NCBI GenBank assembly: GCA_023382715.1
Contig: JAHDWP010000010.1
Coordinates: 1-58,575 of the forward strand
DNA length: 58,575 nt
Source of the DNA: Anaerolineae bacterium
GTDB taxonomy: Bacteria; Chloroflexota; Anaerolineae; Aggregatilineales; Aggregatilineaceae
Direction of reading: 5' to 3'
Shown here: positions 35,376 to 51,284 of the stretch, piece after piece
How the letters are laid out: the number at the start of each line of letters is the position of its first letter
How positions within the stretch are numbered: the first letter of the stretch is position 1
Notes under the pieces: model-generated
The model's database searches: none
What the model saw: the letters and a program-made list of their open reading frames with translations, nothing else
Told to the model about the DNA's origin: nothing
Program-made: the position numbers and the translations under genes

Positions 35376-38300
35376 ATGTCCCGATACATTGCTACGCGCG
35401 CGATTCGCGGGGCGAACGCGCTGGTCACTGAAGCCGAGCTGATGCTCAACAGGGCGCTGGCCGAAAAAGGGCCAGATACGCCCGTCGCTTTTCCCAACAC
35501 GGCCTACTACCTGCCCGTGATCTACGGCATGACCGGGCGCGAAGTGACCAGGATCGGCGACCTGACCGCTGCGGTGCGCCATGCTCGCGAGCTGCTGCAC
35601 CCGCTGCCCTCGCGCCAGAAGTGGACGCCCTACCTGGGCGAAACGCTCGACAGCGGCATGGCCACCCTGCTGGCCGCCGAAACCATCGAGGCGATCCGCT
35701 TCGTCTATGGCTTGCAGCCAGAGCCGTTTCCCGGCATCGAGCTGGCCGGCGGCACGTCCTACGGCGGCGGCGGTGACAATGTCGGCCACCTCAACGGCCC
35801 CATTGACGACATTCAGCTTCGCTCGTGGGGCATCCAGTTGGTGGACGGGCGCATGCCCGGCTTCGCGGCGATTGTCGGCGCGGCCAAGTCCAACGAGGTC
35901 GCCGTCAAGATCGTGCGCGAGCTTCAGCAGCGCAACATCCTGTGCTTCCTCTCCGGCAACGTCAACGGGCGCAGCATCATCCACCAGTTGCAGGAAGAGG
36001 GCGTCGAGCTGGGTTACGACACCTACACCGTGCCCTTCGGCACCGACACGATCAGCGCCATCTACGCGCTCGGCTTTGCCACGCGCTCGGCGCTGACCTT
36101 CGGCGGCATCAAGCCCGGCCAGGCGCGCGACATCCTGCTGTACAACAAGCAGCGCGTGTTCGCCTTTGTGCTGGCCCTGGGCGAAGTGGACGATCTCAAG
36201 TACGCGGCGGCGGCGGGCGCCATCAACTACGGCTTCCCGGTCATCGCCGACACGGTCATCCCCGAAATCCTGCCGACCGGCGTCACCACCTACGAACACG
36301 TGGTCAGCATGCCCTTCAACGAGATCGAGGGCAAGGACGACCTGGAGCGCGCCGAAATCCTGGTGCAGAAGTGCATCGAGGTGCGCGGCGTGAAGATCAA
36401 GCTCGCCGACGTGCCCGTGCCCGTGCCCTACGGCTCTGCCTTCGAGGGCGAAGTGGTGCGCAAGGCCGACATGCGCGTCGAGTTTGGCGGCAAATACACG
36501 CGCTGCTTCGAGTACCTGCGCATGGTGGACATGGACCAGGTGCAGGACGGCAAGGTTGAGATCGTCGGCCCCACCTTCGACGAGATCGAGGCGCAGGGCC
36601 ATATGGACCTGGGCATCGTCATCGAAGTGGCCGGTCGCCAGATGCAGAAGGACTTCGAGCCGGTGCTGGAGCGCCAGGTGCACTACTTCGTCAACGGCGC
36701 GTCCGGCATCCAGCACATCGGCCAGCGCGACATCGCCTGGATTCGCATCTCCAACGCCGCCGCCGACAAGGGCTTCAGCCTGGAGCATTTCGGCAAGATT
36801 CTACACGCCCGCTATCACGCCGACTTCGGCGCGATTGTGGACAAGGTGCAGGTGACGCTCTACACCGACAAGACCAAGATCGAAGAGTGGCTGGCGCGGG
36901 CGCGCGAAGCCTACGATTACCGCAACAAGCGCCTGGAAGACCTGACCGATACGGCGGTGGACGAGTTCTACTCGTGCACGCTGTGCGTCCCGCCCGACCA
37001 GGACATCATGCTGGCCGACGGCTCGTTCCTGCCCATCGAAACGCTGATCCACCAGGCAGTGGACGATGGCCTGCGCCCGGTCATGACCTTCGCCCAGGAT
37101 CGCCTCACCAGCCACTCGATGGGCGAGTTGTTCATCAACCCCGCCCCCCGCGATCTGGTGTGTATCCGCCTGAAGAACGGCAACGACCTGACCCTGACCG
37201 CCAACCATAAGGTGTTGGTAGACAGGCCGGAAGGGTTGCTGTGGGTGGCGGCGGGCAAGCTCCAGGCCGGGGACTACGTGCTGGACGCGCTGCCCGCGCT
37301 CGAAGAGGCCGGCGGAGAACTTCCCGCCATCGTTGACTTTCTGCCAGAGGACTACAAGGTTGCGGATGAGGCGTTCTATCAGCAGTTGCGCACCTGGACG
37401 CTGGCTCGCTACCCGCGCCTGAGCGAAGCGGCTGCCGCTTTCGGCATCCCCTACCGGCGGCTGTACAGCGCGCTCTACCCGCGCCAGGAAGTTTCACACC
37501 AGCGACTGACCATTGGTGAGATCAAGACGGCGCTGGCCGCGCTCGGCCAGGACTGGGACGCCGTGAAACGGACGCTGCGCTGCTTCCAGGCAAAAACAAT
37601 GCTGCACCGCGCGCAGCTTGACGCCGATCTGCTCTACCTGGCCGGCCTGGTGGCCGCAGACGGCTGTGTGCGCTGGCGCGGCCCCCAGGGGCGCAGCGGC
37701 GTATTCGTGCAGTTCACCAACACCGAACCCGCACTCATCCGCCGTTTCAGCGACATCGTGACCCAGGTCTTTGGGCGCACCCCCACCCAGCAAACCCACT
37801 CGCCCAGGGCCAGCCGTTCGGACGATCTGCTGATCGGGGATCGCCGCGATGTCACGGTAGCTATCGCTGGCAACGCCCTGCTGGGCCGCCTGCTCAACGG
37901 GCTGGGAATCGGCCTGCCCGACCAGGAACAGAAATGGGCCGGTTACGCTATCTCCGCGCTCCCCACCGATCTGGTGGCGGCTTTCCTGCGCGGGCTGTTC
38001 GATGGCGATGGGCACGTTTCGGACCAGCGGGTGCTGTTCACCACGCGCACGAAGATCGAGGCGCGCCACGTCCACCTGCTGCTCAAGCGGCTGGGCATTG
38101 TGTCGTCCATCAGCCCCATCACGCGCGGCTACCAGGTAGCGACCAGCTCGGACGGGGATGCGCTGCGCTTCCGCGAGCGGGTCGGCTCCGACCATCCGGC
38201 CAAGCGCGCCCGCCTGGACGCGATCAGCCAGCGCCAGGATGAGGGTCATGTCGTGCGCAACGACGCGATCCCGCTGTCGTGCCACACGCACCTGGCGACC

Positions 38301-41300
38301 CTGGTGGAACGCTACCCGATTCCTGCCAGCCGCCTGCCGGTGGACAGCAAGACGCTGCTAAGCTGGCGCAAGGGCGAGACGCGCCCCAGCAAGGTCAAGC
38401 TCGCCGCTGTGCTGGATGCTCTGAGCGACATAGTCCCGCCCGACGACGCAGATTACGCGGCGCTGCGGGCCTGGACGCAAGCCGACGTGCGCTTCCAGAA
38501 AATCAGCGAGGTCGTCTCCGTCCCCAGCCAGGGTGAGCGCGTCTACAACTTCAGCGTCGAGCATACGCACAACTACGTGGTCAACGGCGTGATCGTCAAG
38601 AACTGCCAATCCTTCGCGCCAGACCACGTCTGCATCGTCAGCCCCGAACGGCTGGGGCTGTGCGGCGCGTACAACTGGCTGGACTGCAAGGCGTCGTTCA
38701 GCATCAACCCCACCGGTCCCAACCAGCCGATCAAGCTCGGCCAGGTCATTGACCCGGTCAAGGGCTACTGGACGGGCACCAACGAATACGCCGCCATCGG
38801 CTCGCACGGTACCGTGCAGCAGGTGTCCATGTATTCGATCCTAGAAAACCCAATGACGGCCTGCCTCACCTCGGACGCTGAAGTGATCGTTGATGGCCGT
38901 CTGACGACCATCGGGGAATGGGTAGACGCCCACCAGGGTCAGCAGGGGCCGTTCGACGCAGAGGCTACGACGCTCGACGATCAGGGCCAAATCACGCCGA
39001 GCCGCGTGCTCGGCGTTCACCGCAATCCCGCGCCGCCGTTTCTGGTGGAGCTGGAGACCAAATCCGGCCAGCGGCTGACCCTGACGCCGAACCATCCCGT
39101 CGCGGTTGATCGCCCCACAGGGCCGGCCTGGATTCGGGCAGATGAGGTGCAGGCTGCTGACCGGCTGTATGCCGTCAGACACGTTAAGGTCGAGGAACGG
39201 ACTCCACTGGCAATAGACCTGCTGCCGGATGGCTGGCGCATGGCCGATGATCTCCTGATCGCCGAAGTCTGGGCAAAACTGGAGACGGTTTACGGCTCAA
39301 AGGCCGCAGCCCGCCGCGCGCTGCCAGAACTGCCAGAGGTGCGCTCAAGCTGGCCGCTTGCCCTCTACCGCAAGGTTTGCGAAAGCCTGGGCGAAGACTG
39401 GCCGCAGCTCAAGACACGTATCCAGCGAGTGGCTCCGCCCGCCGGAAACCCGGCCCAGTCGCTGCCGGAAATCTCGCCTGACCTGCTCTACCTGTTCGGT
39501 TTCCTGGCCTCAGGCGGGGCGCTGAACCGTGTGGGCAAGAACCAATGCCAGGTCTTCTTCACCAACAGCGAACCGGCCCTGCTGGACCACGTCCAGGCAG
39601 TCTATGAGCGCGTCTTTCCAGACAAGTCGCTGGGCCGCCGGGAAAAGACTCACAGCGGCAGCGTCGGGCTGCGCCCTGTCATCCCGACCAAGACAGGGAT
39701 GGACCTCTATGGTGCCAACGCGCTTTTTGGCGCTCTGGCCGACGCGCTGGGCATCCGACGGGCTGGCTCCCCCACCTGGGACTTGAAGCGTCTTTTCGCT
39801 CTGCCCGAAACGCACATTGCGGCGTTCATGGCCGGCGTCTTCGACGGAGACGGCTCTGTACGAGTTCGGGAGCAGAACGGCTGGATCGCTGGGGAAGCAT
39901 ACCTGTGCCACAGCGACGAGCGAGCCGCGCGCCATCTGGCGCTTCTGCTGAGACGGCTCGGCGTCGTGGCCCATCTCAGCGCAGGCCCGGTCTGCAAGCT
40001 GACCATGCACGGCGCCGATCTGCGACGGTTTGCCTCGCTCATTCACAGCCATCACCCCGCGCGGGCCGCCAAGCTGGCAATTCTGAAGGCCGAGAATGCT
40101 GTTGAGCTGGACAAGTCCCAGTCGGAAGTGTTGCCCTATGCCGCCGGACAGGCGCTGGCCCAGGCAGACACGGCAGGAACACTGAGCACGTCCATGCGCC
40201 ACTACTATGCAACTGGGCGTTCACGGCCCGTCAGGGGCAATGTGGCGCGAGTCCTGGAAGCTCAGCCTGATAGAGTCACGACACTGCAACCCTGGCTTGA
40301 GCGCGATGACTTTCTGGACACCGTGACGCGCGTTGAGATGATCAGACATGACGGCAGGTACGAGCACGTTTACAACCTGAGCCTGCTGGACATCAACAGC
40401 TACCTGGCAAACGGCCTGCTCGTCAAGAACTGCGGCTGCTTTGAGTGCATCGTCATGCTCATCCCCGAAGCGAACGGCGTGATGATCGTCAGCCGCGAAG
40501 ACACCAGCATGACCCCGGCGGGCATGACCTTCAGCACCCTGGCTGGCATAGCCGGCGGCGGCCTGCAAACGCCGGGCGTGATGGGCGTCGGCAAGTACTA
40601 CCTGATCAGCCCCAAGTTCATCTCCGCCGACGGCGGCCTGAAGCGCGTGGTATGGATGAGCAGCATCCTCAAAGAGACGATGGCCGACGAGTTCAAGATC
40701 GCCGCCGAGCGCGAGGGTATGCCCAACCTGCTCGAAAAGATCGCCGACGAGCGCAGCGTGACCGACGTGAGCGAGCTGGTCGCCTGGCTGGAAGAGCACA
40801 ATCACCCGGCCCTGGCCATGGGGCCGATGGAAGCCGGCGCCGCGCCGGAAGCAGCGGCAGAAGCCATGCCCGCCAGCGCCAGCGAGCTTGATGTGGCGCT
40901 CGACGCGCTGGAGGACGCTGCGCCGGCGGTTGAACCGGAACCGGAGCCTGCCCTGCCCGAACCAGCACCGGCTGCGTTCGCAGCACAGGCGGAGCCAGAA
41001 CCCGCTATGACCCCTGAACCTGTACCAGCCGATCTGCCGCCCGGCGATCCGGGCGCACCCCAAGGCCCGGCAGCCCAACAGCCGCCGGCCCCGGTGCCTC
41101 CCACTGCGCTGGGAGACGCGAGCGCGGCGTTCTTCGACCAGCTTCGCCGCGCGCTGGCTGCCGGTCTGCTGGCTGCCGCGCGCGAGCTTGGCGCGGACGT
41201 GAGCAGCGTGCCCACGCCACCGGCGCCCGCCGTGCCCGTACAGGCTGCTCCGCCGCCGGCCCTCGCTGTGCCCGTGCAGGCTGCCCCACCGCCGGCCCCG

Positions 41301-42404
41301 TCCGCGCCACCGGCTCCACCTGCCGAACCGGTACAGGCCGCGGCTCCCGTCGCGCCGCCCAAGCCTGCTGCGCCGCCCGCGCCGCCTGCTCCGCCCAAGA
41401 AGGCGCTGCCGCCCGACAAGCCCTGGGCGAGCGCCGAGACCAAGACGGAGATCGTCAAGGAGAAGTGGCCCGGCAGGGTGCGCGAGGTGACGCTTGGCGC
41501 GACCAAAGAACAGGGCGGCACGCGCGCCCGCGCTCTGACCGTTGGCGGCGAGAGCGCCCTGCCCTTCATGTTCTTCGAGGGCGACATCCCGCATCGGCCA
41601 GCGGTAGCCATCGAGATCGAAGACCGCCGCCCGGACGACTGGCCGCCGGTGCTGCTGCAGGCGTGGGGCGAGGCCGCCAACGACCCGGCAGCGTGGGCCA
41701 AAGCCGCCGAAAGCGCCGGGGCCGATGCCCTGGTGCTGGCGCTGAGCCTCACCGACGCCGACGGCAAGCCCAACACGCCAGAGCGCGCCGTCGCCGTGAC
41801 CAAAGCCGTGCTCCAGGCCAGCGCCCTGCCGCTGATCGTCTGGGGGCCGGGCCAGGCCGAGGCCGACAACGCCCTGCTGGTGCCCATCGCCGAAGCGACC
41901 GCGGGCGAACGGCTGGCGCTCGGCCTGTGCGAGGACAAAAACTACCGCACCATCATCGCCACCGCGATGGCCAACAATCACCTGGTCATCGCCCGCACGG
42001 CGATGGATGTCAACCTGGCCAAGCAGCTCAATATCCTGATCAGCGACATGGGCCTGCCGCTCGACCGCGTGCTGATGGACCCGACGACCGGCGCCCTGGG
42101 CTATGGCATTGAATACGGCTACTCGGTGATGGAGCGCCTGCGCCTGGCAGCCCTGCAAGGCGACGCCATGACCCAGCTTCCGATGATCGTCACGCCCGGC
42201 TACGAAACCTGGAAAGCCAAGGAGGCGAAGGTGGGCAGCGGCGTGCCGGAGGCCTGGGGCGACTGGGAAGCGCGTGCCATCCACTGGGAGACGCTGACCG
42301 CCATGGCCCTGGTCGAGTCGGCGGCGAACATCGTCGTGCTGCGCCACCCGGAGAGCGTCAAGCGGGTGCGCCTGGCCATTGACGACCTGATGAGCGCCCG
42401 ATGA
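35376..42404 (+). CDS. acsB-acsD: Acetyl-CoA synthase fused to corrinoid protein small subunit, interrupted by two inteins
   Basis: A 2342-codon gene. The first part is AcsB, the enzyme that joins CO, a methyl group and CoA at the Ni-Ni-[4Fe-4S] A-cluster. Residues 1-536 are the AcsB N-terminal two domains (YGGGGDNVGHLNGPIDD, LSGNVNGRS, INYGFPVIADT). Intein 1 (537-1076), 86 AcsB residues, intein 2 (1163-1685) and the last AcsB part (CGCFECIVMLIPEANGVM, to about 1815) follow. Spliced numbering gives cluster cysteines 534, 537, 546, 556, 623 and 625, the same spacing as Moorella 506, 509, 518, 528, 595 and 597. Next is a Pro/Ala-rich linker (about 1815-2015) and AcsD, the corrinoid iron-sulfur protein small subunit (RPAVAIEIEDR, DKNYRTIIATAMANNHLVIA, LMDPTTGALGYGIEYGYS). 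Mature product: 1279 residues. No separate acsD is in the window. Confidence 0.95.
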   Translation: MSRYIATRAIRGANALVTEAELMLNRALAEKGPDTPVAFPNTAYYLPVIYGMTGREVTRIGDLTAAVRHARELLHPLPSRQKWTPYLGETLDSGMATLLAAETIEAIRFVYGLQPEPFPGIELAGGTSYGGGGDNVGHLNGPIDDIQLRSWGIQLVDGRMPGFAAIVGAAKSNEVAVKIVRELQQRNILCFLSGNVNGRSIIHQLQEEGVELGYDTYTVPFGTDTISAIYALGFATRSALTFGGIKPGQARDILLYNKQRVFAFVLALGEVDDLKYAAAAGAINYGFPVIADTVIPEILPTGVTTYEHVVSMPFNEIEGKDDLERAEILVQKCIEVRGVKIKLADVPVPVPYGSAFEGEVVRKADMRVEFGGKYTRCFEYLRMVDMDQVQDGKVEIVGPTFDEIEAQGHMDLGIVIEVAGRQMQKDFEPVLERQVHYFVNGASGIQHIGQRDIAWIRISNAAADKGFSLEHFGKILHARYHADFGAIVDKVQVTLYTDKTKIEEWLARAREAYDYRNKRLEDLTDTAVDEFYSCTLCVPPDQDIMLADGSFLPIETLIHQAVDDGLRPVMTFAQDRLTSHSMGELFINPAPRDLVCIRLKNGNDLTLTANHKVLVDRPEGLLWVAAGKLQAGDYVLDALPALEEAGGELPAIVDFLPEDYKVADEAFYQQLRTWTLARYPRLSEAAAAFGIPYRRLYSALYPRQEVSHQRLTIGEIKTALAALGQDWDAVKRTLRCFQAKTMLHRAQLDADLLYLAGLVAADGCVRWRGPQGRSGVFVQFTNTEPALIRRFSDIVTQVFGRTPTQQTHSPRASRSDDLLIGDRRDVTVAIAGNALLGRLLNGLGIGLPDQEQKWAGYAISALPTDLVAAFLRGLFDGDGHVSDQRVLFTTRTKIEARHVHLLLKRLGIVSSISPITRGYQVATSSDGDALRFRERVGSDHPAKRARLDAISQRQDEGHVVRNDAIPLSCHTHLATLVERYPIPASRLPVDSKTLLSWRKGETRPSKVKLAAVLDALSDIVPPDDADYAALRAWTQADVRFQKISEVVSVPSQGERVYNFSVEHTHNYVVNGVIVKNCQSFAPDHVCIVSPERLGLCGAYNWLDCKASFSINPTGPNQPIKLGQVIDPVKGYWTGTNEYAAIGSHGTVQQVSMYSILENPMTACLTSDAEVIVDGRLTTIGEWVDAHQGQQGPFDAEATTLDDQGQITPSRVLGVHRNPAPPFLVELETKSGQRLTLTPNHPVAVDRPTGPAWIRADEVQAADRLYAVRHVKVEERTPLAIDLLPDGWRMADDLLIAEVWAKLETVYGSKAAARRALPELPEVRSSWPLALYRKVCESLGEDWPQLKTRIQRVAPPAGNPAQSLPEISPDLLYLFGFLASGGALNRVGKNQCQVFFTNSEPALLDHVQAVYERVFPDKSLGRREKTHSGSVGLRPVIPTKTGMDLYGANALFGALADALGIRRAGSPTWDLKRLFALPETHIAAFMAGVFDGDGSVRVREQNGWIAGEAYLCHSDERAARHLALLLRRLGVVAHLSAGPVCKLTMHGADLRRFASLIHSHHPARAAKLAILKAENAVELDKSQSEVLPYAAGQALAQADTAGTLSTSMRHYYATGRSRPVRGNVARVLEAQPDRVTTLQPWLERDDFLDTVTRVEMIRHDGRYEHVYNLSLLDINSYLANGLLVKNCGCFECIVMLIPEANGVMIVSREDTSMTPAGMTFSTLAGIAGGGLQTPGVMGVGKYYLISPKFISADGGLKRVVWMSSILKETMADEFKIAAEREGMPNLLEKIADERSVTDVSELVAWLEEHNHPALAMGPMEAGAAPEAAAEAMPASASELDVALDALEDAAPAVEPEPEPALPEPAPAAFAAQAEPEPAMTPEPVPADLPPGDPGAPQGPAAQQPPAPVPPTALGDASAAFFDQLRRALAAGLLAAARELGADVSSVPTPPAPAVPVQAAPPPALAVPVQAAPPPAPSAPPAPPAEPVQAAAPVAPPKPAAPPAPPAPPKKALPPDKPWASAETKTEIVKEKWPGRVREVTLGATKEQGGTRARALTVGGESALPFMFFEGDIPHRPAVAIEIEDRRPDDWPPVLLQAWGEAANDPAAWAKAAESAGADALVLALSLTDADGKPNTPERAVAVTKAVLQASALPLIVWGPGQAEADNALLVPIAEATAGERLALGLCEDKNYRTIIATAMANNHLVIARTAMDVNLAKQLNILISDMGLPLDRVLMDPTTGALGYGIEYGYSVMERLRLAALQGDAMTQLPMIVTPGYETWKAKEAKVGSGVPEAWGDWEARAIHWETLTAMALVESAANIVVLRHPESVKRVRLAIDDLMSAR
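36984..38603 (+). other. Intein 1 in acsB with LAGLIDADG endonuclease
   Basis: A 540-residue in-frame intervening protein. It starts with Cys537 (CVPPDQDIMLADGS, block A) and ends with Asn1076 (NYVVNGVIVKN), followed by extein Cys1077. Block B is TANH near residue 608. The endonuclease has two LAGLIDADG motifs, LYLAGLVAADG near 755 and FLRGLFDGDG near 874, both with the catalytic Asp. A helical part with DSKTLLSWRKGETRPSKVKL before the C-terminal block looks like a DNA-binding helix-turn-helix. The penultimate residue is Lys, not the usual His. Removing it restores FYSCTL-CQSFAPDHVC, the A-cluster segment. Confidence 0.95.
38862..40430 (+). other. Intein 2 in acsB with degenerate LAGLIDADG endonuclease
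   Basis: A 523-residue in-frame intervening protein beginning at Cys1163 (CLTSDAEVIVDGRLTTIGEW) and ending with Asn1685 (LDINSYLANGLLVKN), followed by extein Cys1686. Block B is TPNH near residue 1238. The first LAGLIDADG motif reads LYLFGFLASGG near 1372, with Gly in place of the catalytic Asp; the second, AGVFDGDG near 1488, is intact. The penultimate residue is Lys and block F has NSY instead of HNY. It shares FFTNSEPALL and related strings with intein 1, so the two are homologues. Removing it restores ENPMTA-CGCFECI. Confidence 0.93.
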
Positions 42405-42480: not shown

Positions 42481-43014
42481 ATGACCCAACGCCACCTTGT
42501 GCGCGACCTGATGACTGTGGGCGTCCTCACCTGCACGCCGGATGCCACCGTCGCCGAGATCGCGCGGCTGCTGCTCGAACACAACCTCGACGGCGTGATC
42601 GTCCTCGACCACGAGGGCCACGCCGTCGGGGCGGTGACGCAGCACGAGCTGATCGGCGCGTACCAGCACGAAACGCCGCGCGCCCTGACCGCCGCCGCGA
42701 TCATGCGCGAGGATGTGCCAGAGCTGCCGCCCGACATCCCACTCGTCGCAGCGGCGGGCCTGATGCGCGACAAAGGCTGGCGCGTCGTCTTCCTGATGCA
42801 CAACACGACGGGCATCAGCTATCCGGCGGCCCAGCTATCCTACCGCCATTTCCTGCGCCATCTCGCCGCGCGCAGCGACGCCGAGCTGGCCGACCTGGGC
42901 ATCCGCGCCGCACGCCAGTCGCCGATGCAGCTTTACGCGCAGAAGCGCGACGCGGCCCGCCGCCAGCGTCTCGGCGCCGCGCCCGGCCAGCCGGTGCGGA
43001 GGGAACGCTCATGA
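42481..43014 (+). CDS. CBS-domain-pair protein 1 of the CODH/ACS operon
   Basis: A 177-residue soluble protein made of a CBS pair (residues about 3-60 and 68-120). The first CBS is VRDLMTVGVLTCTPDATVAEIARLLLEHNLDGVIVLDHEGHAVGAVTQHELI; the second is ITAAAIMREDVPELPPDIPL...MRDKGWRVVFLM. CBS pairs usually bind adenine nucleotides (AMP, ATP, SAM) and modulate a partner. The C-terminal extension (ISYPAAQLSYRHFLRHLAARSDAELADLGI) is shared with the next gene and is not part of CBS. It overlaps the next gene by 4 bases (ATGA), so the pair is translationally coupled. The partner is not known; the position between acsB-acsD and acsC suggests regulation of the CODH/ACS system by energy charge. Confidence 0.88.
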   Translation: MTQRHLVRDLMTVGVLTCTPDATVAEIARLLLEHNLDGVIVLDHEGHAVGAVTQHELIGAYQHETPRALTAAAIMREDVPELPPDIPLVAAAGLMRDKGWRVVFLMHNTTGISYPAAQLSYRHFLRHLAARSDAELADLGIRAARQSPMQLYAQKRDAARRQRLGAAPGQPVRRERS

Positions 43015-43487
43015 GCGCGCGCACCCTGGTCCGCGAGCTGATCGGCCCGGCGGTGACCTGCGCGCCGGATGCGCCCGTCGCGGAGATCGCGCGGCTGCTG
43101 CTGACCCATGACCTGGAAGGCGTGGTCGTGCTCAACGAGGACGGGCACGCCGTCGGCGTGGTGGGCCAGGACGAGCTGGTGACCGCCTACGGGCGTCCCG
43201 ACCGCGCCGGGCTGACCGCCGAAGACGTGATGAACGAGGCGATTCCCCACGTGCGCCCGGATATTCCGCTGGCTGCCGCCGCGCAGATCATGCGGGATTT
43301 GGGCGTGCGGATGCTGTTCCTGATGCCCCAGCGCGGTGGCATCACCTATCCGGCGGCCATGCTGTCCTATCGCCAGTTGCTGCGGCACCTGGCCGCCCAC
43401 AACGATGACGAATTGACCGATCTGGGCATTAACGTGGTGCGCCCGCCGCTCGCCCGGCCCTCCGCGCCGCTGCGCCCCGGCTCTTAG
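43011..43487 (+). CDS. CBS-domain-pair protein 2 of the CODH/ACS operon
   Basis: A 158-residue paralogue of the preceding protein. It reads LVRELIGPAVTCAPDAPVAEIARLLLTHDLEGVVVLNEDGHAVGVVGQDELVTAYG, then MNEAIPHVRPDIPLAAAAQIMRDLGVRMLFLM, then the same tail, ITYPAAMLSYRQLLRHLAAHNDDELTDLGI. The two proteins probably form a heterodimer, which would create a two-pair CBS module as found in larger regulators. The ATG overlaps the stop of the first gene. 41 bases separate it from acsC, whose own ribosome site is GAGGAGAC. Confidence 0.88.
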   Translation: MSARTLVRELIGPAVTCAPDAPVAEIARLLLTHDLEGVVVLNEDGHAVGVVGQDELVTAYGRPDRAGLTAEDVMNEAIPHVRPDIPLAAAAQIMRDLGVRMLFLMPQRGGITYPAAMLSYRQLLRHLAAHNDDELTDLGINVVRPPLARPSAPLRPGS

Positions 43488-43528: not shown

Positions 43529-44869
43529 ATGGCACTCTCAGGCATTCAGATCTACCAACTGCTGCCGCAGACCAACTGCAAGGAATGTGGGTTCCCCACC
43601 TGCATGGCCTTCGCCATGAAGCTGGCCGCCAAACAGGCCGAGCTTGCCGCCTGCCCCTATGTCAGCGGCGAAGCGAAGGAGAAGCTCTCCGCCGCCGCGC
43701 AGCCGCCCGTGCGCCTGATCACGCTCAAGGCCGACGGCCACGAGGTCAAAGCGGGCAACGAGACGGTGATGTTCCGCCACGAAAAACGCTTCTTCCACAA
43801 GCCGGGGCTGTTCGTGCGCGTGCGCGACGATCAGCCGCGCGATGCGATCAAAGCGAAAGTATCCGCCGCCGAAGCCTATAAAGTGAACTACGTGGGCATG
43901 GACCTGGCCCTGGACGGCTTCGCGGTCGAGGCGGTCAAGGGCGACCCGGCGGCTTTCGCCGACGCGGTGGGCGCTGTGCGCGAAGTGAGCGAGCGCCCGC
44001 TGATCCTGATAGGTCGCGATCCGGCGGTGATCGCCGCCGGGCTGAAGGCCATTGATGGCGAAGCTCCGCTCATTCACGGCGCAGACTCGGCCAACTGGGG
44101 CGCGATGGCGGACCTGGCCAAGAGCGTCGGCGCACCGCTGTCGGTCATCGCTGACACGCTCGACGGCCTGGTCGCCCTCAGCAGCAAGCTGAAAGACAAG
44201 GGCCTGGACGACCTGGCGCTGGCCCCCACTGCCCGGCACCTGGGCACGTCGCTGGGCCTCTACACCCAGCTTCGCCGGCTGGCGCTGAAAAAAAACCTGC
44301 GCCCGGCTGGTTACCCCATCCTGGCCATCCCCGGCGATGCGCCCGACCCAGCCTACGAGTCGCTGCTGGCGGCGCAGGCCATCGCCAAGTACGCCGGGTT
44401 TGTCGTGCTGGACACCTTCACGCCGGAGCTGGCCTATGGGCTGCTCGTGCTGCGCGAGAACCTGTACACCGATCCGCAGAAGCCGATCCAGGTGCAGCCG
44501 GGCGTCTACGAGCTGAACAGCCCGACACCGGAATCGCCGGTGATGGTCACCACCAACTTCAGCATCACCTACTTCAGCGTGGCCAACGAGGTCGAAGGCT
44601 CCGGGCTGCCCGCCTGGCTGCTGGTGACCGACGCCGAAGGCATGAGCGTGCTGACCGCCTGGGCCGCCGGCAAGTTCGACGCCGAGCGCATCGCCAAATC
44701 AGTCAAGGAGTTCGGGCTGGCCGAGAAGGTCAGCACCAGGCGGATCGTGCTGCCCGGCCATGTGGCCGTGCTCTCTGGCGAGCTGGAAGAAGAGCTGCCC
44801 GACTGGGATGTGCGCGTCGGCCCGCGCGAGGCGGTGGACATCCCGTCGTTCATGAAACAGGCGTTGTAA
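43529..44869 (+). CDS. acsC: Corrinoid iron-sulfur protein large subunit
   Basis: A 446-residue AcsC/CdhE, the gamma-type subunit that carries the [4Fe-4S] cluster and the B12 cofactor which accepts the methyl group from methyl-THF and hands it to AcsB. The N-terminal cluster motif is Cys17, Cys20, Cys25 and Cys42 (TNCKECGFPTCMAFAMKLA). The TIM barrel follows with KADGHEVKAGNETVMFRHEKRFFHKPGLFV and PGVYELNSPTPESPVMVTTNFSITYFSVANEVEGSG, which are nearly universal AcsC strings. The C-terminal corrinoid-binding part has LPAWLLVTDAEGMSVLTAWAAGKF and GHVAVLSGELEEELPDWDVRVGPREA. It should pair with the AcsD part of the upstream fusion. Confidence 0.97.
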   Translation: MALSGIQIYQLLPQTNCKECGFPTCMAFAMKLAAKQAELAACPYVSGEAKEKLSAAAQPPVRLITLKADGHEVKAGNETVMFRHEKRFFHKPGLFVRVRDDQPRDAIKAKVSAAEAYKVNYVGMDLALDGFAVEAVKGDPAAFADAVGAVREVSERPLILIGRDPAVIAAGLKAIDGEAPLIHGADSANWGAMADLAKSVGAPLSVIADTLDGLVALSSKLKDKGLDDLALAPTARHLGTSLGLYTQLRRLALKKNLRPAGYPILAIPGDAPDPAYESLLAAQAIAKYAGFVVLDTFTPELAYGLLVLRENLYTDPQKPIQVQPGVYELNSPTPESPVMVTTNFSITYFSVANEVEGSGLPAWLLVTDAEGMSVLTAWAAGKFDAERIAKSVKEFGLAEKVSTRRIVLPGHVAVLSGELEEELPDWDVRVGPREAVDIPSFMKQAL

Positions 44870-44878
44870 ACACGGCTG

Positions 44879-46813
44879 ATGGCTGAGCACACTGTCACAT
44901 TTGATATCGCCGCCGGCCCGGTCACGGTGCCGACCGGGACGCGGCTGACCGAGGCCGCACGGCGGGCCGGAGTGGAGATCGCCCAGCCGTGCGGCGGGCA
45001 AGGGCGCTGCGGGCGCTGCGCCGTGCAGGTGACCGCCGGCACCGTCCGCCGCCGCAGCGCGCTGCGCCTGTCCGCCGAAGATGTGGCAGCGGGCTACGCG
45101 CTCGCTTGCCAGGCGGTTGTCGAAGGCGATGTGCACGTCGTCGTCCCGCCCCAGGAGAAGATCGAGCGGCGGCTGACGACGGATCGCACGGCAGCCGAAG
45201 TCCAGGTGCCGGAGGGTTACGAGCCGGCCCGCGTCCAGCCGATTCACCGCGTGACGCTGACAACCGCGCCGCCCAGCCTGGACGACCAGACCGACGACTG
45301 GAGCCGCATCCAGAAGGCGCTGCGCCAGCACGCGCGCCTGGCCGAGGCGCAGATCTCGCTGATGCAGCTTCGCCGTATCGGGCACATCCTGCGCCGGGGG
45401 GACTGGCAGATGACGGTGGTCCTCGACGCCGAAGCGTGGGATTGCCCGCACTGCCCGGTGCGCCTGATCGAGCTGAAGCGCGGCGCGGTGAGCGAAGACG
45501 CGCCGCTGTGGGGCGTGGCCATTGACATCGGCACGACGACCGTCTCGCTGTGGCTGGTAGACCTGCTGACAGGGCGAGTTCACGCGCAGGTGGCCGAGTA
45601 CAACGGCCAGATCGCGCGCGGCGAAGATGTCATCTCGCGCATCATCTACAGCGGCAAAGGCAGCGGCGGCGAAGAACTGCGCGACCTGGTGCTGGGCACG
45701 ATCAAGACACTGGTCGAAGAAGCCTGCCAGCGCGTCCAGATCGCCCCGACCGAGATCATGAAAGCGACCATCGCCGGCAACAGCACGATGACTCACCTGC
45801 TGCTGGGCATCCCGGCCCGCAGCATCCGCCTGATGCCCTTCGTCACCGCCGTCAACCACGTGCCCACCCTGACGGCGCACGAAGTGGGCCTGGCCATCCA
45901 CCCGGACGCGACGGTGGACTGCCTGCCGGGGGTGGCCAGCTACGTGGGCGCAGACATCACGGCAGGCGTGCTCTCGTCCGGCCTGGACGACACCGACCTG
46001 GTGACGCTGTTCATTGACGTGGGCACCAACGGTGAGATCGTGCTCGGCAACAAGGACTGGCTGGTGACGGTCGCTGCCTCGGCGGGGCCGGCCTTCGAGG
46101 GCAGTGGTGTGCAGCATGGGATGCGCGCCACCAAAGGGGCCATCGAGGAGGTGTGGGTCAACGGCGACACCTACGAGCCGACCTACCGCGTGATCGGCGG
46201 TGTCAAGCCGCGCGGACTGTGCGGCAGCGGCCTGATCTCGCTGCTGGCCGAGATGTTCCTGACCGGCGTGGTGGACAAAGGCGGGCACATCAACACGCAC
46301 CTGCCCACCCCGCGCGTGCGCGTCGGCGAGCACGGCCCGGAGTACGTCGTCTGCTGGGCCGCCGACAGCGCCACAGGCAGCGACATCGTCGTCACCGATG
46401 TGGACATGGACAACCTGATCCGCACCAAGGCGGCCATCTACGCCGGCTTCACCGTGCTGGCGCAGAGCGTCGGCCTCACGCTCGACGACGTGGAGCAGGT
46501 GCTGGTGGGCGGCTCGTTCGGCAAATACATCAATGTCGAGAAGGCCATTCAGATCGGCCTGCTGCCCGACATGCCCTGGGATCGCTTCCAGTTCCTGGGC
46601 AACACGTCCATCAAGGGGGCGTACCTGGCGCTGCTCGATCGCCGGGCGCGCAACCGCATCAAGGACATCGCCAGCCGCATGACCTATATCGAGCTATCGG
46701 CGGATAACACGTTCTACGAAGCGTTCACATCGGCGCTGTTCCTGCCGCACACCGATCTGTCGCATTTCCCGTCGGTGCAGGCAGCGGTAGAAACCAAGAA
46801 CGGCGGGGCCTAG
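44879..46813 (+). CDS. acsV: Corrinoid activation ATPase/ferredoxin (RACo-type)
   Basis: A 644-residue reductive activator of the corrinoid iron-sulfur protein. RACo re-reduces accidentally oxidised Co(II) corrinoid, driven by ATP. The N-terminal [2Fe-2S] ferredoxin domain has Cys38, Cys44, Cys47 and Cys77 (QPCGGQGRCGRCAVQV, ALACQAV). A linker domain follows (about 90-205), then the ASKHA-type ATPase: GVAIDIGTTTVSLWLVD, GNSTMTHLLLGI, DVGTNGEIVLG, GVKPRGLCGSGLIS and GGSFGKYINVEKAIQIGLLPD, all typical for RACo/DUF4445. The start lies 9 bases after the acsC stop; its ribosome site is weak, so coupling with acsC is likely. Absent from methanogenic ACDS operons, so it marks the bacterial type of the pathway. 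Confidence 0.93.
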   Translation: MAEHTVTFDIAAGPVTVPTGTRLTEAARRAGVEIAQPCGGQGRCGRCAVQVTAGTVRRRSALRLSAEDVAAGYALACQAVVEGDVHVVVPPQEKIERRLTTDRTAAEVQVPEGYEPARVQPIHRVTLTTAPPSLDDQTDDWSRIQKALRQHARLAEAQISLMQLRRIGHILRRGDWQMTVVLDAEAWDCPHCPVRLIELKRGAVSEDAPLWGVAIDIGTTTVSLWLVDLLTGRVHAQVAEYNGQIARGEDVISRIIYSGKGSGGEELRDLVLGTIKTLVEEACQRVQIAPTEIMKATIAGNSTMTHLLLGIPARSIRLMPFVTAVNHVPTLTAHEVGLAIHPDATVDCLPGVASYVGADITAGVLSSGLDDTDLVTLFIDVGTNGEIVLGNKDWLVTVAASAGPAFEGSGVQHGMRATKGAIEEVWVNGDTYEPTYRVIGGVKPRGLCGSGLISLLAEMFLTGVVDKGGHINTHLPTPRVRVGEHGPEYVVCWAADSATGSDIVVTDVDMDNLIRTKAAIYAGFTVLAQSVGLTLDDVEQVLVGGSFGKYINVEKAIQIGLLPDMPWDRFQFLGNTSIKGAYLALLDRRARNRIKDIASRMTYIELSADNTFYEAFTSALFLPHTDLSHFPSVQAAVETKNGGA

Positions 46814-46906
46814 AGTCCGGCCAGGCTGCCTGGGGCGTCCGCGCGGGCGCCGACAGGCCAGCCCTATTTCGTGCGACCGATTACCGACACGGAAAAGGAC
46901 AAGACC

Positions 46907-47830
46907 ATGTACATCATCGGTGAGAATATTCACATCATTTCGCCCAGGGTCAAAGAGGCGCTGGCCGCCAAAGACCGCGAATTCTTCATGGACCTGGCTG
47001 TGCGCCAGGTGGAGGCGGGCGCGCAGGCGGTGGACCTCAACCTCGGCCCGCGCAAAAAGGACTGGGAAGAGGTTTTCCCCTGGATGGTCGAGACGGTCGA
47101 GGCGGTGGTGGACGTGCCGCTGGTCTTCGACAGCACCAATCTGCAGGGCATTGAGGCCGGCCTGAAGAAGGTGACCAAAGCCCAGCCGATCATCAACTCG
47201 ACGTCGGCGGAGCCGGAGCGGCTGGAGAAAGTGCCGCTCGTCGCCAAGCAGTACAACGCCAAGCTGATCGCCCTGACGATGGGCACCAGCGGCATCCCGA
47301 TCAGCGCCGACGAGCGCGTCAACATCGCCGTCGAGCAGCTCATCCCGCGCATGGTCGAGATTGACTACCCCGTGCAAGACCTGATCGTAGACCCGCTGGT
47401 GCTCACCGTCTCCGGCTGCCAGGAATACTGCCCGGAGTGCATCGAGGCGGTACGTATGCTGCCCTACGTGTGGGACCCGGCCCCGCAGATTTCGGTCGGG
47501 CTGTCCAACGTCTCCAACGCCGTCCCGCGCGAAGGCCGCCCGCTGATCAACCGCGTCTACTGCGCCATGCTGATGGGGGCCGGCCTGCAGATGATGATCG
47601 CCGACCCGTTCGACCAGGAGCAGAACGAGGTCATCCGCGTCATCGAGCAGCGCGACGAGAGCACGGCCCTGGGCCGCCTGTACCTCAAGATTCACGACCG
47701 GGTGCAGGCGATGGAACAGCCGCAGATCGAAGACGTGGACCTGGGCGACCCGGAGCAGGCGGCCATCTGGAAGACGGTGCAGATTCTGCTCAACAAGGTC
47801 ATCTACGCGGACAGCTACCTTCAGCAGTAA
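46907..47830 (+). CDS. acsE: 5-methyltetrahydrofolate:corrinoid iron-sulfur protein methyltransferase
   Basis: A 307-residue pterin-binding TIM barrel. It transfers the methyl group of CH3-THF to the corrinoid protein. The start at 46907 follows AGGA by 8 bases; MYIIGENIHII is a characteristic AcsE opening. The string AQAVDLNLGPRKKDWEEVFPWMV is the pterin-site DLNxGP motif, then PLVFDSTN, NSTSAEPERL and MGTSGIPISADER follow in family order. ECIEAVRMLPY and GLSNVSNAVPREGRPLINRVY near the C-terminus also match. Length is slightly greater than the Moorella enzyme. It belongs to the operon though a gap of 93 bases follows the acsV gene. Confidence 0.96.
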   Translation: MYIIGENIHIISPRVKEALAAKDREFFMDLAVRQVEAGAQAVDLNLGPRKKDWEEVFPWMVETVEAVVDVPLVFDSTNLQGIEAGLKKVTKAQPIINSTSAEPERLEKVPLVAKQYNAKLIALTMGTSGIPISADERVNIAVEQLIPRMVEIDYPVQDLIVDPLVLTVSGCQEYCPECIEAVRMLPYVWDPAPQISVGLSNVSNAVPREGRPLINRVYCAMLMGAGLQMMIADPFDQEQNEVIRVIEQRDESTALGRLYLKIHDRVQAMEQPQIEDVDLGDPEQAAIWKTVQILLNKVIYADSYLQQ

Positions 47831-49716: not shown

Positions 49717-50499
49717 ATGAAACTCGCCATCAGCGGCAAGGGGGGCGTGGGCAAAACGACGCTCACGGCCCTGCTCGCCCAGGTTTACGCCGACGCCGGG
49801 CGCGACGTGCTGGCCGTGGACGCCGATCCTGCGCCGTGCCTGGCCGGGGCGCTTGGCTTCCCGCCCGACCTGCGCGCCCATCTGCGCCCCATCGCCGAGA
49901 TGGACGCGCTGATCGAGGAGCGCACCGGGGCCAAGCCGGGCACCGTCGGCGGCTTTTTCACGCTCAACCCGCGCGTGGACGACCTGCCGGAGCGCTTCAG
50001 CGCCACGCATCGCGGCGTGCGCCTGCTGGAGATGGGATCGGTGGACCTGGGCGGATCGGGCTGCATCTGCCCGGAGAGCGCCATGCTCAAGACGCTGTTC
50101 ACGCACCTGCTCTTCCGCCAGGATGACGTGCTGATCCTGGACATGTACGCGGGCGTCGAGCATCTGGGCCGGGCGACGGTAGACTTCGTGGACGCGATGA
50201 TCGTCGTCGTCGAGCCGACGCGGCGCAGCCTGGGCACCGCCGCCCAGATCAAGAAGCTGGCAGCGGACATCGGCCTGACGCGGCTGTGGCTGGTCGGCAA
50301 CAAGGTGCGCGACGAGGAGGAGGCCGCCTTCCTGGCCGCCGAGACACCCGGCCTGCCCCTGCTGGGCACGCTGCCCGCTGACCTGGCCGTGCAGGAAGCC
50401 GACCGGCGCGGCCTCGCCGTATACGATTTCGTCCCGGCTCTGCGCCAGTCTGCTGAGCGCATGGCCGCGACGCTGAGCGCGGAGATTGAACGCCGATGA
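49717..50499 (+). CDS. cooC: CooC/AcsF-type nickel-insertion ATPase 1
   Basis: A 260-residue MinD/ParA-type ATPase. Deviant Walker A SGKGGVGKTTL at residues 6-16, switch DADPAP at 35-40. The CxC metal site is Cys116-Ile-Cys118 in GSGCICPESAM, which in the CooC/AcsF family holds Ni or Zn between two monomers. It reads to the usual length (about 260). The ATG overlaps no upstream gene; 239 bases of heptad-repeat DNA precede it. It overlaps the second copy by 4 bases (ATGA), so both are co-translated. In acetogens CooC matures CODH and AcsF matures ACS; with two copies one may serve each enzyme, but which one does what is inference. Confidence 0.93.
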   Translation: MKLAISGKGGVGKTTLTALLAQVYADAGRDVLAVDADPAPCLAGALGFPPDLRAHLRPIAEMDALIEERTGAKPGTVGGFFTLNPRVDDLPERFSATHRGVRLLEMGSVDLGGSGCICPESAMLKTLFTHLLFRQDDVLILDMYAGVEHLGRATVDFVDAMIVVVEPTRRSLGTAAQIKKLAADIGLTRLWLVGNKVRDEEEAAFLAAETPGLPLLGTLPADLAVQEADRRGLAVYDFVPALRQSAERMAATLSAEIERR

Positions 50500-51284
50500 C
50501 GACGACTATCGCCCTGGCGGGCAAGGGCGGCGTGGGCAAGACGACCATCGCTGCCATGATCATCAAGTACCTGGCCCAGACGCAGCACGGGGCCATCCTG
50601 GCCATTGACGCCGACCCCAGCAGCAACCTGAACATGGTGCTCGGCCTGGGCCTGGACTGGACGGTTGGCGACATCCGCGAGGGGCTGCTGGAAAAGGTCA
50701 AGGAGTCCCTGACGGCGGGCGGGGCGGCGATGGGCGCGCTGAACGGCGGCCTGACCAAGCGCGAATACCTGGACTATGAGGTGCGCGCCGCGCTGTCCGA
50801 AGGCTCGCGCTTCGACCTGATCGCTATGGGGCGCTCCGAAGGCCCCGGCTGCTACTGCGCCGTCAACCACAACCTGCGCGAAGTGGTGGACAGCATCAGC
50901 AAGAACTACCGCTATGTGGTCATTGACAACGAGGCGGGCATGGAGCACCTCAGCCGGCGCACCACGCGCGACGTGGAGGCGCTGCTCGTCGTCAGCGACG
51001 CGACGCAGCGCGGCATTGTCGCCGCCGAGCGCATCGCTTCGTTCCGCCACGAGCTGGGCATCAACATCAACGCGGCTTATCTCGTCCTCAACAACGTGCC
51101 CGGCGGGGTGATCCCGCCCCCGCTGCAAGCGCGCATCGCGCAGCTTGATCTGCCGCTGCTGGGCGCAGTGCCGGGCGATGAGAAGCTGGTCGAGTTCGAG
51201 TTCAGCGGGCGCCCGCTGGTCGAGCTGGGCGACGACTCGCCGGTCTACCAGGCGGTCGCGGCCATGATGGGGCAGATTCTGTAG
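50496..51284 (+). CDS. cooC: CooC/AcsF-type nickel-insertion ATPase 2
   Basis: A 262-residue paralogue of the preceding ATPase. Walker A AGKGGVGKTTI at 8-18, DADPSSNLNMVLG, Cys119-Tyr-Cys121 in EGPGCYCAVNHNLREV, and VVIDNEAGMEHLSRRTT, closer to the textbook CooC sequence than the first copy. Nickel insertion into CO dehydrogenase is therefore the more likely job of this one. It is the last gene of the operon. Downstream converge the ABC importer genes. Confidence 0.94.
   Translation: MTTTIALAGKGGVGKTTIAAMIIKYLAQTQHGAILAIDADPSSNLNMVLGLGLDWTVGDIREGLLEKVKESLTAGGAAMGALNGGLTKREYLDYEVRAALSEGSRFDLIAMGRSEGPGCYCAVNHNLREVVDSISKNYRYVVIDNEAGMEHLSRRTTRDVEALLVVSDATQRGIVAAERIASFRHELGININAAYLVLNNVPGGVIPPPLQARIAQLDLPLLGAVPGDEKLVEFEFSGRPLVELGDDSPVYQAVAAMMGQIL

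Follow-up and report, generated by a model that had tools for sequence, protein, structure and literature searches.

Two inteins at A-cluster cysteines of an Anaerolineae acetyl-CoA synthase: probable homing elements at fixed sites of acsB

When a metalloenzyme is interrupted exactly at its metal ligands, is protein splicing a control on its maturation, or are the interruptions ordinary mobile elements? The question is raised by a 58,575-nucleotide stretch of the genome of an Anaerolineae bacterium (Chloroflexota; contig JAHDWP010000010.1 of assembly GCA_023382715.1), the whole of which we call the window. An open frame of 2342 codons (35376-42404, on the forward strand like its parts and the CO dehydrogenase and Acs-type genes below) encodes an acetyl-CoA synthase (ACS) with two inteins, a Pro/Ala-rich linker and a C-terminal domain of the AcsD/CdhD type, the small subunit of the corrinoid iron-sulfur protein (CFeSP). 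A sequence-only reading of the window had proposed that both inteins precede ligands of the A-cluster and that their splicing gates ACS maturation. We conclude that they are very probably two class 1-type homing inteins occupying fixed sites of acsB, here called a and b, and ordinary parasites rather than a fixed gate. As established by sequence comparison, this conclusion is carried by the identity of the inserts, their exact sites, exact empty alleles, two site-specific lineages, repeated gain and loss, and purifying selection.

Two inteins before A-cluster cysteines

No in-frame stop was found along 35376-42404. The flanks of the inserts are acetyl-CoA synthase (Pfam PF18537, PF03598 and PF19436), with ACS homology spanning the full chain (7zkj_B, E 6.5e-204, residues 10-755), and the C-terminal part is of the AcsD/CdhD type (NF003376 of NCBIfam, above cut-off). 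The N-extein (35376-36983) comprises the N-terminal and middle domains of ACS and ends in YSC(534)TL. It is followed by intein a (36984-38603; 540 aa, residues 537-1076), which runs from Cys1 to Asn540 and has Cys537 of the spliced chain as its +1 residue. This cysteine opens a middle extein of 86 aa (38604-38861) that also contains Cys546 and Cys556, after which intein b (38862-40430; 523 aa, residues 1163-1685) extends from Cys1 to Asn523, with Cys623 at +1. The C-extein (40431-42401) holds the A-cluster motif Cys623-Gly-Cys625, the remainder of ACS, the linker and the AcsD/CdhD-type domain (about 41445-42392). Removal of both inserts gives a chain of 1279 residues, whose cysteines lie at 534, 537, 546, 556, 564, 623, 625 and 628, and at 190, 333, 377 and 1122.

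The spliced A-cluster segment aligns without gaps (phmmer) to residues 467-628 of the Moorella chain 1oao_C, which bears out the earlier assignment of the two junction cysteines to Cys509 and Cys595. Cys534, 537, 546, 556, 623 and 625 correspond to Moorella 506, 509, 518, 528, 595 and 597, all six A-cluster cysteines, and the +1 residues of inteins a and b, Cys537 and Cys623, to Cys509 and Cys595, respectively. The proximal nickel, Ni(p), is liganded by Cys509, 595 and 597, and the distal nickel, Ni(d), by Cys595/597 and backbone amides (PMC10299331 and PMC8910529, cited, like the other literature here, from the excerpts available). By this alignment, two of the three proximal-nickel ligands directly follow inteins, and it is reasonable to suppose that the A-cluster could not form while the inserts remain. 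Intein-free alleles, which the sequence-only reading had suggested seeking in related genomes, do occur there, and in them the DNA runs on exactly across both junctions.

Both inserts match the intein_Nterm profile of NCBIfam (TIGR01445) above its cut-off, with E values of 1.3e-8 (a) and 5.1e-9 (b), as well as Pfam LAGLIDADG_3 and solved inteins of the PDB. The intein_Cterm profile of NCBIfam matches the first insert only, and Pfam Intein_splicing matches both, the second below the curated cut-off (31.6 vs 35.8 bits). Cys1 is invariant across the aligned inteins, block B carries its TxxH motif (LTLTANH and LTLTPNH), and both C-terminal junctions read VKN/C, with a terminal Asn and a Cys at +1. 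In all 26 inteins whose C-terminus is present, among 28 aligned, the block F Asp is replaced by Asn and the penultimate His by Lys; the replaced residues are usual and non-obligatory. Working inteins that lack the penultimate His exist. The KlbA intein, for instance, carries Ser at position G:6 (PMC4031507). The initial description of two inteins with blocks A, B, F and G and LAGLIDADG domains thus holds as to the inteins, which NCBIfam and Pfam recognise, and needs amendment as to blocks F and G, which are non-canonical, and as to the nuclease motif of the second insert, which reads LASGG.

The LAGLIDADG nuclease region of intein a (37608-38240) has Asp in both motifs and is separated from block F by a helical accessory, helix-turn-helix-like region (38256-38483). 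In intein b the nuclease region (39177-40076) lacks Asp in its first motif, both in the window and in its congener G757. Since this motif is LASGG, without the usual Asp, the nuclease of intein b may be dead. The accessory region that follows (40092-40295) is again helix-turn-helix-like and is retained by three mini-inteins of relatives. Pfam searches with the accessory pieces yielded no recognised family; one upstream piece of intein a gave an HTH_28 match below cut-off.

Folds were modelled for intein a and for one relative's site-b mini-intein. The intein a model (mean pLDDT 88.7) combines a HINT fold, a LAGLIDADG domain and the helical accessory region; its best match is 7qss, the TliVMA homing intein (Z 27.0, rmsd 3.5, 395 of 432 residues aligned). 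The 222-aa mini-intein retains the HINT fold and the accessory helices (mean pLDDT 90.5 in the best model, the other four 67-80). The structures 7qss and 2cw7 (PI-TkoII) belong to the closest folds for intein a and take the first two places for the mini-intein, at 15-18% identity in the structural alignments. The hosts of TliVMA and PI-TkoII are archaeal, an ATPase and a DNA polymerase. Both known inteins share with ours the arrangement of HINT fold, LAGLIDADG domain and helix-turn-helix accessory domain, of which the accessory domains are described in PMC8966425.

Site-b mini-inteins of 174-222 aa occur in six genomes; the nuclease is gone and the splicing residues are kept. Their accessory region is kept in G064, G149 and G176, partial in G760 and missing in G773 and G852. 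Its absence from loci L137 and L151 makes it appear separable from both nuclease and splicing. The idea that the accessory region is a splicing requirement is unsupported, as two of the six mini-inteins lack it and one has only part. Mini-inteins that lost the LAGLIDADG nuclease and kept the accessory region (L034, L044 and L053) form a useful set for probing accessory function.

Distribution, descent and selection of the inteins

A class sample of 396 genomes included 152 with an ACS match among the matches listed. Searches with a hidden Markov model (HMM) built on the intein alignment gave strong matches in the ACS of 14 of these 152, at site b in 13, at site a in three and at both in two; ACS genes lacking a retrieved sequence were scored by frame length and HMM search. 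Neither intein was detected in the other 138, again among the matches listed and with some ACS genes being fragments. The window's order has ACS in 28 of 154 genomes, of which 22 lie outside the class sample, and eight of those 22 carry inteins. Across the union of class and order, 22 of 174 ACS genomes have inteins (seven with a, 19 with b, four with both). Some contigs end within an intein: that of G755 inside intein a, placing site b beyond the contig, and those of G748 and G265 inside intein b. One locus (L071, genome G129) was excluded for an assembly gap near site a. The inteins of relatives sit at exactly sites a and b, and the ACS maps that were compared showed no further long insert. 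Frames of about 1180-1370 aa in the class that gave no intein match are ACS-AcsD fusions, with both sites empty in those retrieved.

Beyond the class, the survey covered other classes of the phylum, an archaeal phylum, named records and viral contigs. The other classes provided 38 ACS genomes (49 hits among 400, 11 of them from the window's own or the same class), and none of these has a frame above 812 aa. In the archaeal phylum, 56 of 250 genomes have a CdhC match. Two frames were inspected, of 774 and 643 aa, with four of 690-702 aa left out; the longest (774 aa) is a fusion with sites a and b intein-free, and the 643-aa CdhC frame is likewise intein-free. A search of named records with the site-b alignment found 19 loci, of which 16 are ACS inteins, all from Chloroflexota by their titles; the remaining three come from two Hecatellales archaea, whose host protein reads as radical-SAM-like, and from Thermus. 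In both Hecatellales loci (L093:3869-5449 and L095:5001-6581), the relative of the site-b intein, at 25% identity, lies directly before a Cys-rich CCAAWFC motif of that radical-SAM-like protein. As to carriage by phages, of two scans of viral contigs one gave nine loci with partial matches of 26-41% and the other none. Three more intein-bearing frames were seen in genome G000 (L072, L073 and L075, on contigs 24, 7 and 16), with hosts that read from sequence as DNA polymerase III alpha, dCTP deaminase and class II ribonucleotide reductase.

Allelic states differ within the window's own genus: the window has both inteins, G756 (L134) a only, and G754 (L142) and G757 (L141) b only. A metagenome-assembled genome (L087) whose sequence starts inside intein a has an intein b that clusters with those of this genus. 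Because the ACS proteins of the window and L134 are 95% identical, the gain or loss of an intein was recent. Along most of their length, inteins a and b show 28% identity, and in the intein tree the six a-inteins and 22 b-inteins form separate clades (support 100/100). As the clades split by site, each intein lineage keeps to its own site. A recent origin of one intein by duplication of the other was rejected, given the 28% identity and the distinct clades that the two form in many hosts. In a quickly built ACS tree with 86 rows, presence changed at least five times for a and 16 times for b; in this tree L109 repeats L032, six rows are partial and not every branch is well supported. Grouping the a-inteins by host order was rejected by the approximately unbiased test (p-AU 3.7e-5), and lateral movement is therefore indicated.

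We compared ratios of nonsynonymous to synonymous substitution rates (dN/dS). Within the genus, one pair gives 0.15 for intein a, three pairs span 0.14-0.23 for intein b, and the ACS extein ranges over 0.04-0.13 in four pairs; wider comparisons gave 0.10-0.20 (three pairs; window versus L136 left out). Splicing, nuclease and accessory parts are each constrained (dN/dS 0.05-0.34 in close pairs). By these ratios both inteins are under purifying selection, and a constraint on all parts would fit elements that are still splicing and have recently moved.

Homing elements or a splicing gate

As homing inteins, the two elements would spread through their nucleases: encoded by an allele that carries the intein, the enzyme would cut acsB alleles whose site is empty, into which the intein would then be copied. 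Once translated, each intein would excise itself, using Cys1, the Asn at its end and the Cys at +1, and so free Cys509 and Cys595 for A-cluster ligation; the mature enzyme would be an ordinary ACS with an AcsD-type domain attached. The inteins would persist because ACS stays functional only if they splice faithfully or are deleted precisely. Metal insertion would have to await splicing, a side effect that need not amount to regulation.

The position of the inteins before metal ligands may seem to argue for regulation. Across 79 ACS, seven cysteines are invariant and six of them are A-cluster ligands; as the intein family uses Cys at +1, this mainly explains why the inteins sit at metal ligands. 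Random hits on two of the seven would strike two ligands in 15 of 21 cases and two Ni(p) ligands in 3 of 21, equal chances being assumed. An element requiring Cys would thus mostly land on an A-cluster ligand, and we set aside ligand placement as strong evidence for a gate. Inteins in general prefer conserved functional sites and insert before C, S or T (PMC2814812); this preference accounts for placement at functional residues without regulation, and site b fits it, ranking 12 of 755 in DNA conservation. In the excerpts available, that survey did not name ACS among the hosts.

Several observations weigh against homing inteins as the explanation, or limit it. The DNA at site a is not conspicuously conserved (rank 346 of 755). 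If Ser and Thr also serve at +1, 36 positions come into question, at each of which C, S or T occurs in 95% or more of ACS, and the chance of striking two A-cluster ligands falls to 15/630, so that the ligand placement is explained solely under a preference for Cys. When the ACS of the six hosts is tested by itself, a tree uniting G303 and G852 is not rejected (p-AU 0.207), for which reason the case for lateral transfer is made by the intein tree together with the ACS tree of 86 rows. The two inteins co-occur above independence (4 with both, 7 with a, 19 with b, n=174; Fisher p 0.003, uncorrected for kinship, with one genome whose site b lies beyond its contig entered as a only). The Asn and Lys replacements in blocks F and G could make splicing slow or altered, and both splicing and nuclease activity are predicted from sequence.

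Splicing as a general gate on ACS maturation, as first proposed, is weakened by the 138 of 152 class-sample ACS genomes in which neither intein was detected and by the coexistence of a-only, b-only and double alleles in one genus. A redox effect at site a is possible, because Cys506 (Cys534 of the window's chain; codon 36975-36977) sits at -3 of the Cys1 of intein a, a feature that the sequence-only reading did not mention. Under oxygen stress, Cys506 and Cys1 would form a CxxC disulfide, leaving ACS unspliced and metal-free until reduction and so protecting or timing A-cluster assembly. A Cys at -3 (C-T-x-C) is found in all seven site-a junctions (window, L134, L136, L097/L151, L046, L032 and L135), splicing may be slow with the non-canonical catalytic residues, and the excess co-occurrence of a and b points the same way. 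There is also a precedent in MoaA, an Fe-S radical-SAM protein. The Pyrococcus abyssi MoaA intein, like intein a, follows a native N-extein Cys at -3, which is reported to form a disulfide with Cys1 that can control splicing (PMC3922620); host and site differ, and the disulfide at ACS site a is hypothetical. Against such a switch, Cys-3 ligates the A-cluster and is constant across 79 mostly intein-free ACS, so that it is present anyway and did not evolve for the intein; moreover, congeners lack intein a, position -3 of site b is not a Cys, and most class-sample ACS genomes showed neither intein. Overall, we judge a redox gate at site a unlikely. Its fuller form, in which the site-a intein recruits the [4Fe-4S] ligand Cys506 as its -3 partner, oxidation locks the unspliced, metal-free precursor, reduction lets splicing and A-cluster assembly proceed and, together with intein b, an inbuilt oxygen gate on acetyl-CoA synthesis results, is a doubtful proposal that we hold at slightly lower probability; if it were true, two of the three proximal-nickel ligands would be released only by protein splicing.

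A control by metal, in which Ni2+ or Zn2+ bound to Cys1, Cys+1 and neighbouring thiols pauses splicing and ties ACS maturation to nickel supply, appears very unlikely. In the spliced enzyme both +1 residues serve as metal ligands, PMC7360933 deals with the inhibition of mycobacterial DnaB splicing by zinc, and inteins are sensitive to divalent cations (PMC4031507), but inhibition by divalent ions is reported for several inteins and is not specific to this host. That the frame is a chimeric assembly or a dead gene, yielding no splicing and a non-functional ACS, is hardly credible: a genome in 82 contigs and the unusual residues of blocks F and G might suggest it, but the inserts are in frame and free of stops, sites a and b recur in many separate assemblies, extein dN/dS is 0.04-0.13, and this is the sole ACS match in a 98.6% complete genome, adjoining CO dehydrogenase and AcsC-, AcsV- and AcsE-like genes.

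Gene neighbourhood, comparable systems and significance

In the genome of the window (98.6% complete, 82 contigs), 35376-42404 was the only ACS match found. It is preceded by the catalytic subunit of CO dehydrogenase (TIGR01702; 33349-35364) and followed by an AcsC-type CFeSP large subunit (43529-44869), an AcsV-like corrinoid activation protein (44879-46813) and an AcsE-like methyltransferase (46871-47830), the last two under their curated cut-offs. Two small consecutive open reading frames between ACS and AcsC (42481-43014 and 43011-43487) have weak matches that suggest CBS-type regulatory domains. Downstream of the cluster lie two adjacent MinD-like ATPases (49717-50499 and 50496-51284), possibly CooC-type nickel-insertion factors. 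No second, separate AcsD-like gene stood out in this genome. Fusions of ACS through a linker to an AcsD/CdhD-type domain, as read from their sequences, occur with and without inteins (L041, L139 and L140), and the archaeal locus L165 contains a similar fusion.

Other genes likewise carry two inteins, among them dnaB of Mycobacterium smegmatis (PMC6195587), whose pair differs in rate and stress response, and the DNA polymerase gene of Thermococcus kodakarensis (PMC8966425). The DnaB inteins are unlike in sequence and splicing mechanism, whereas the two ACS inteins are distantly homologous and both precede ligands of a single metal cluster. SufB of Mycobacterium tuberculosis is known to contain a single intein. 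Its host function is iron-sulfur assembly and the intein is reported to be sensitive to oxidation (PMC6195587, PMC8891592), but SufB is a scaffold protein, in contrast to the enzymatic nickel site of ACS. In agreement with the sequence-only reading, which knew of no described case, the open-licence literature as far as found, including the available excerpts of PMC6390638, PMC3087415 and PMC11208441, yielded no description of an ACS intein.

The host of these elements is the key enzyme of the Wood-Ljungdahl pathway. With a-only, b-only and double alleles, the window's genus offers a natural experiment in how inteins home into a metal enzyme and are lost from it, and the double allele permits a direct test of whether splicing can time the formation of a nickel-iron-sulfur site.

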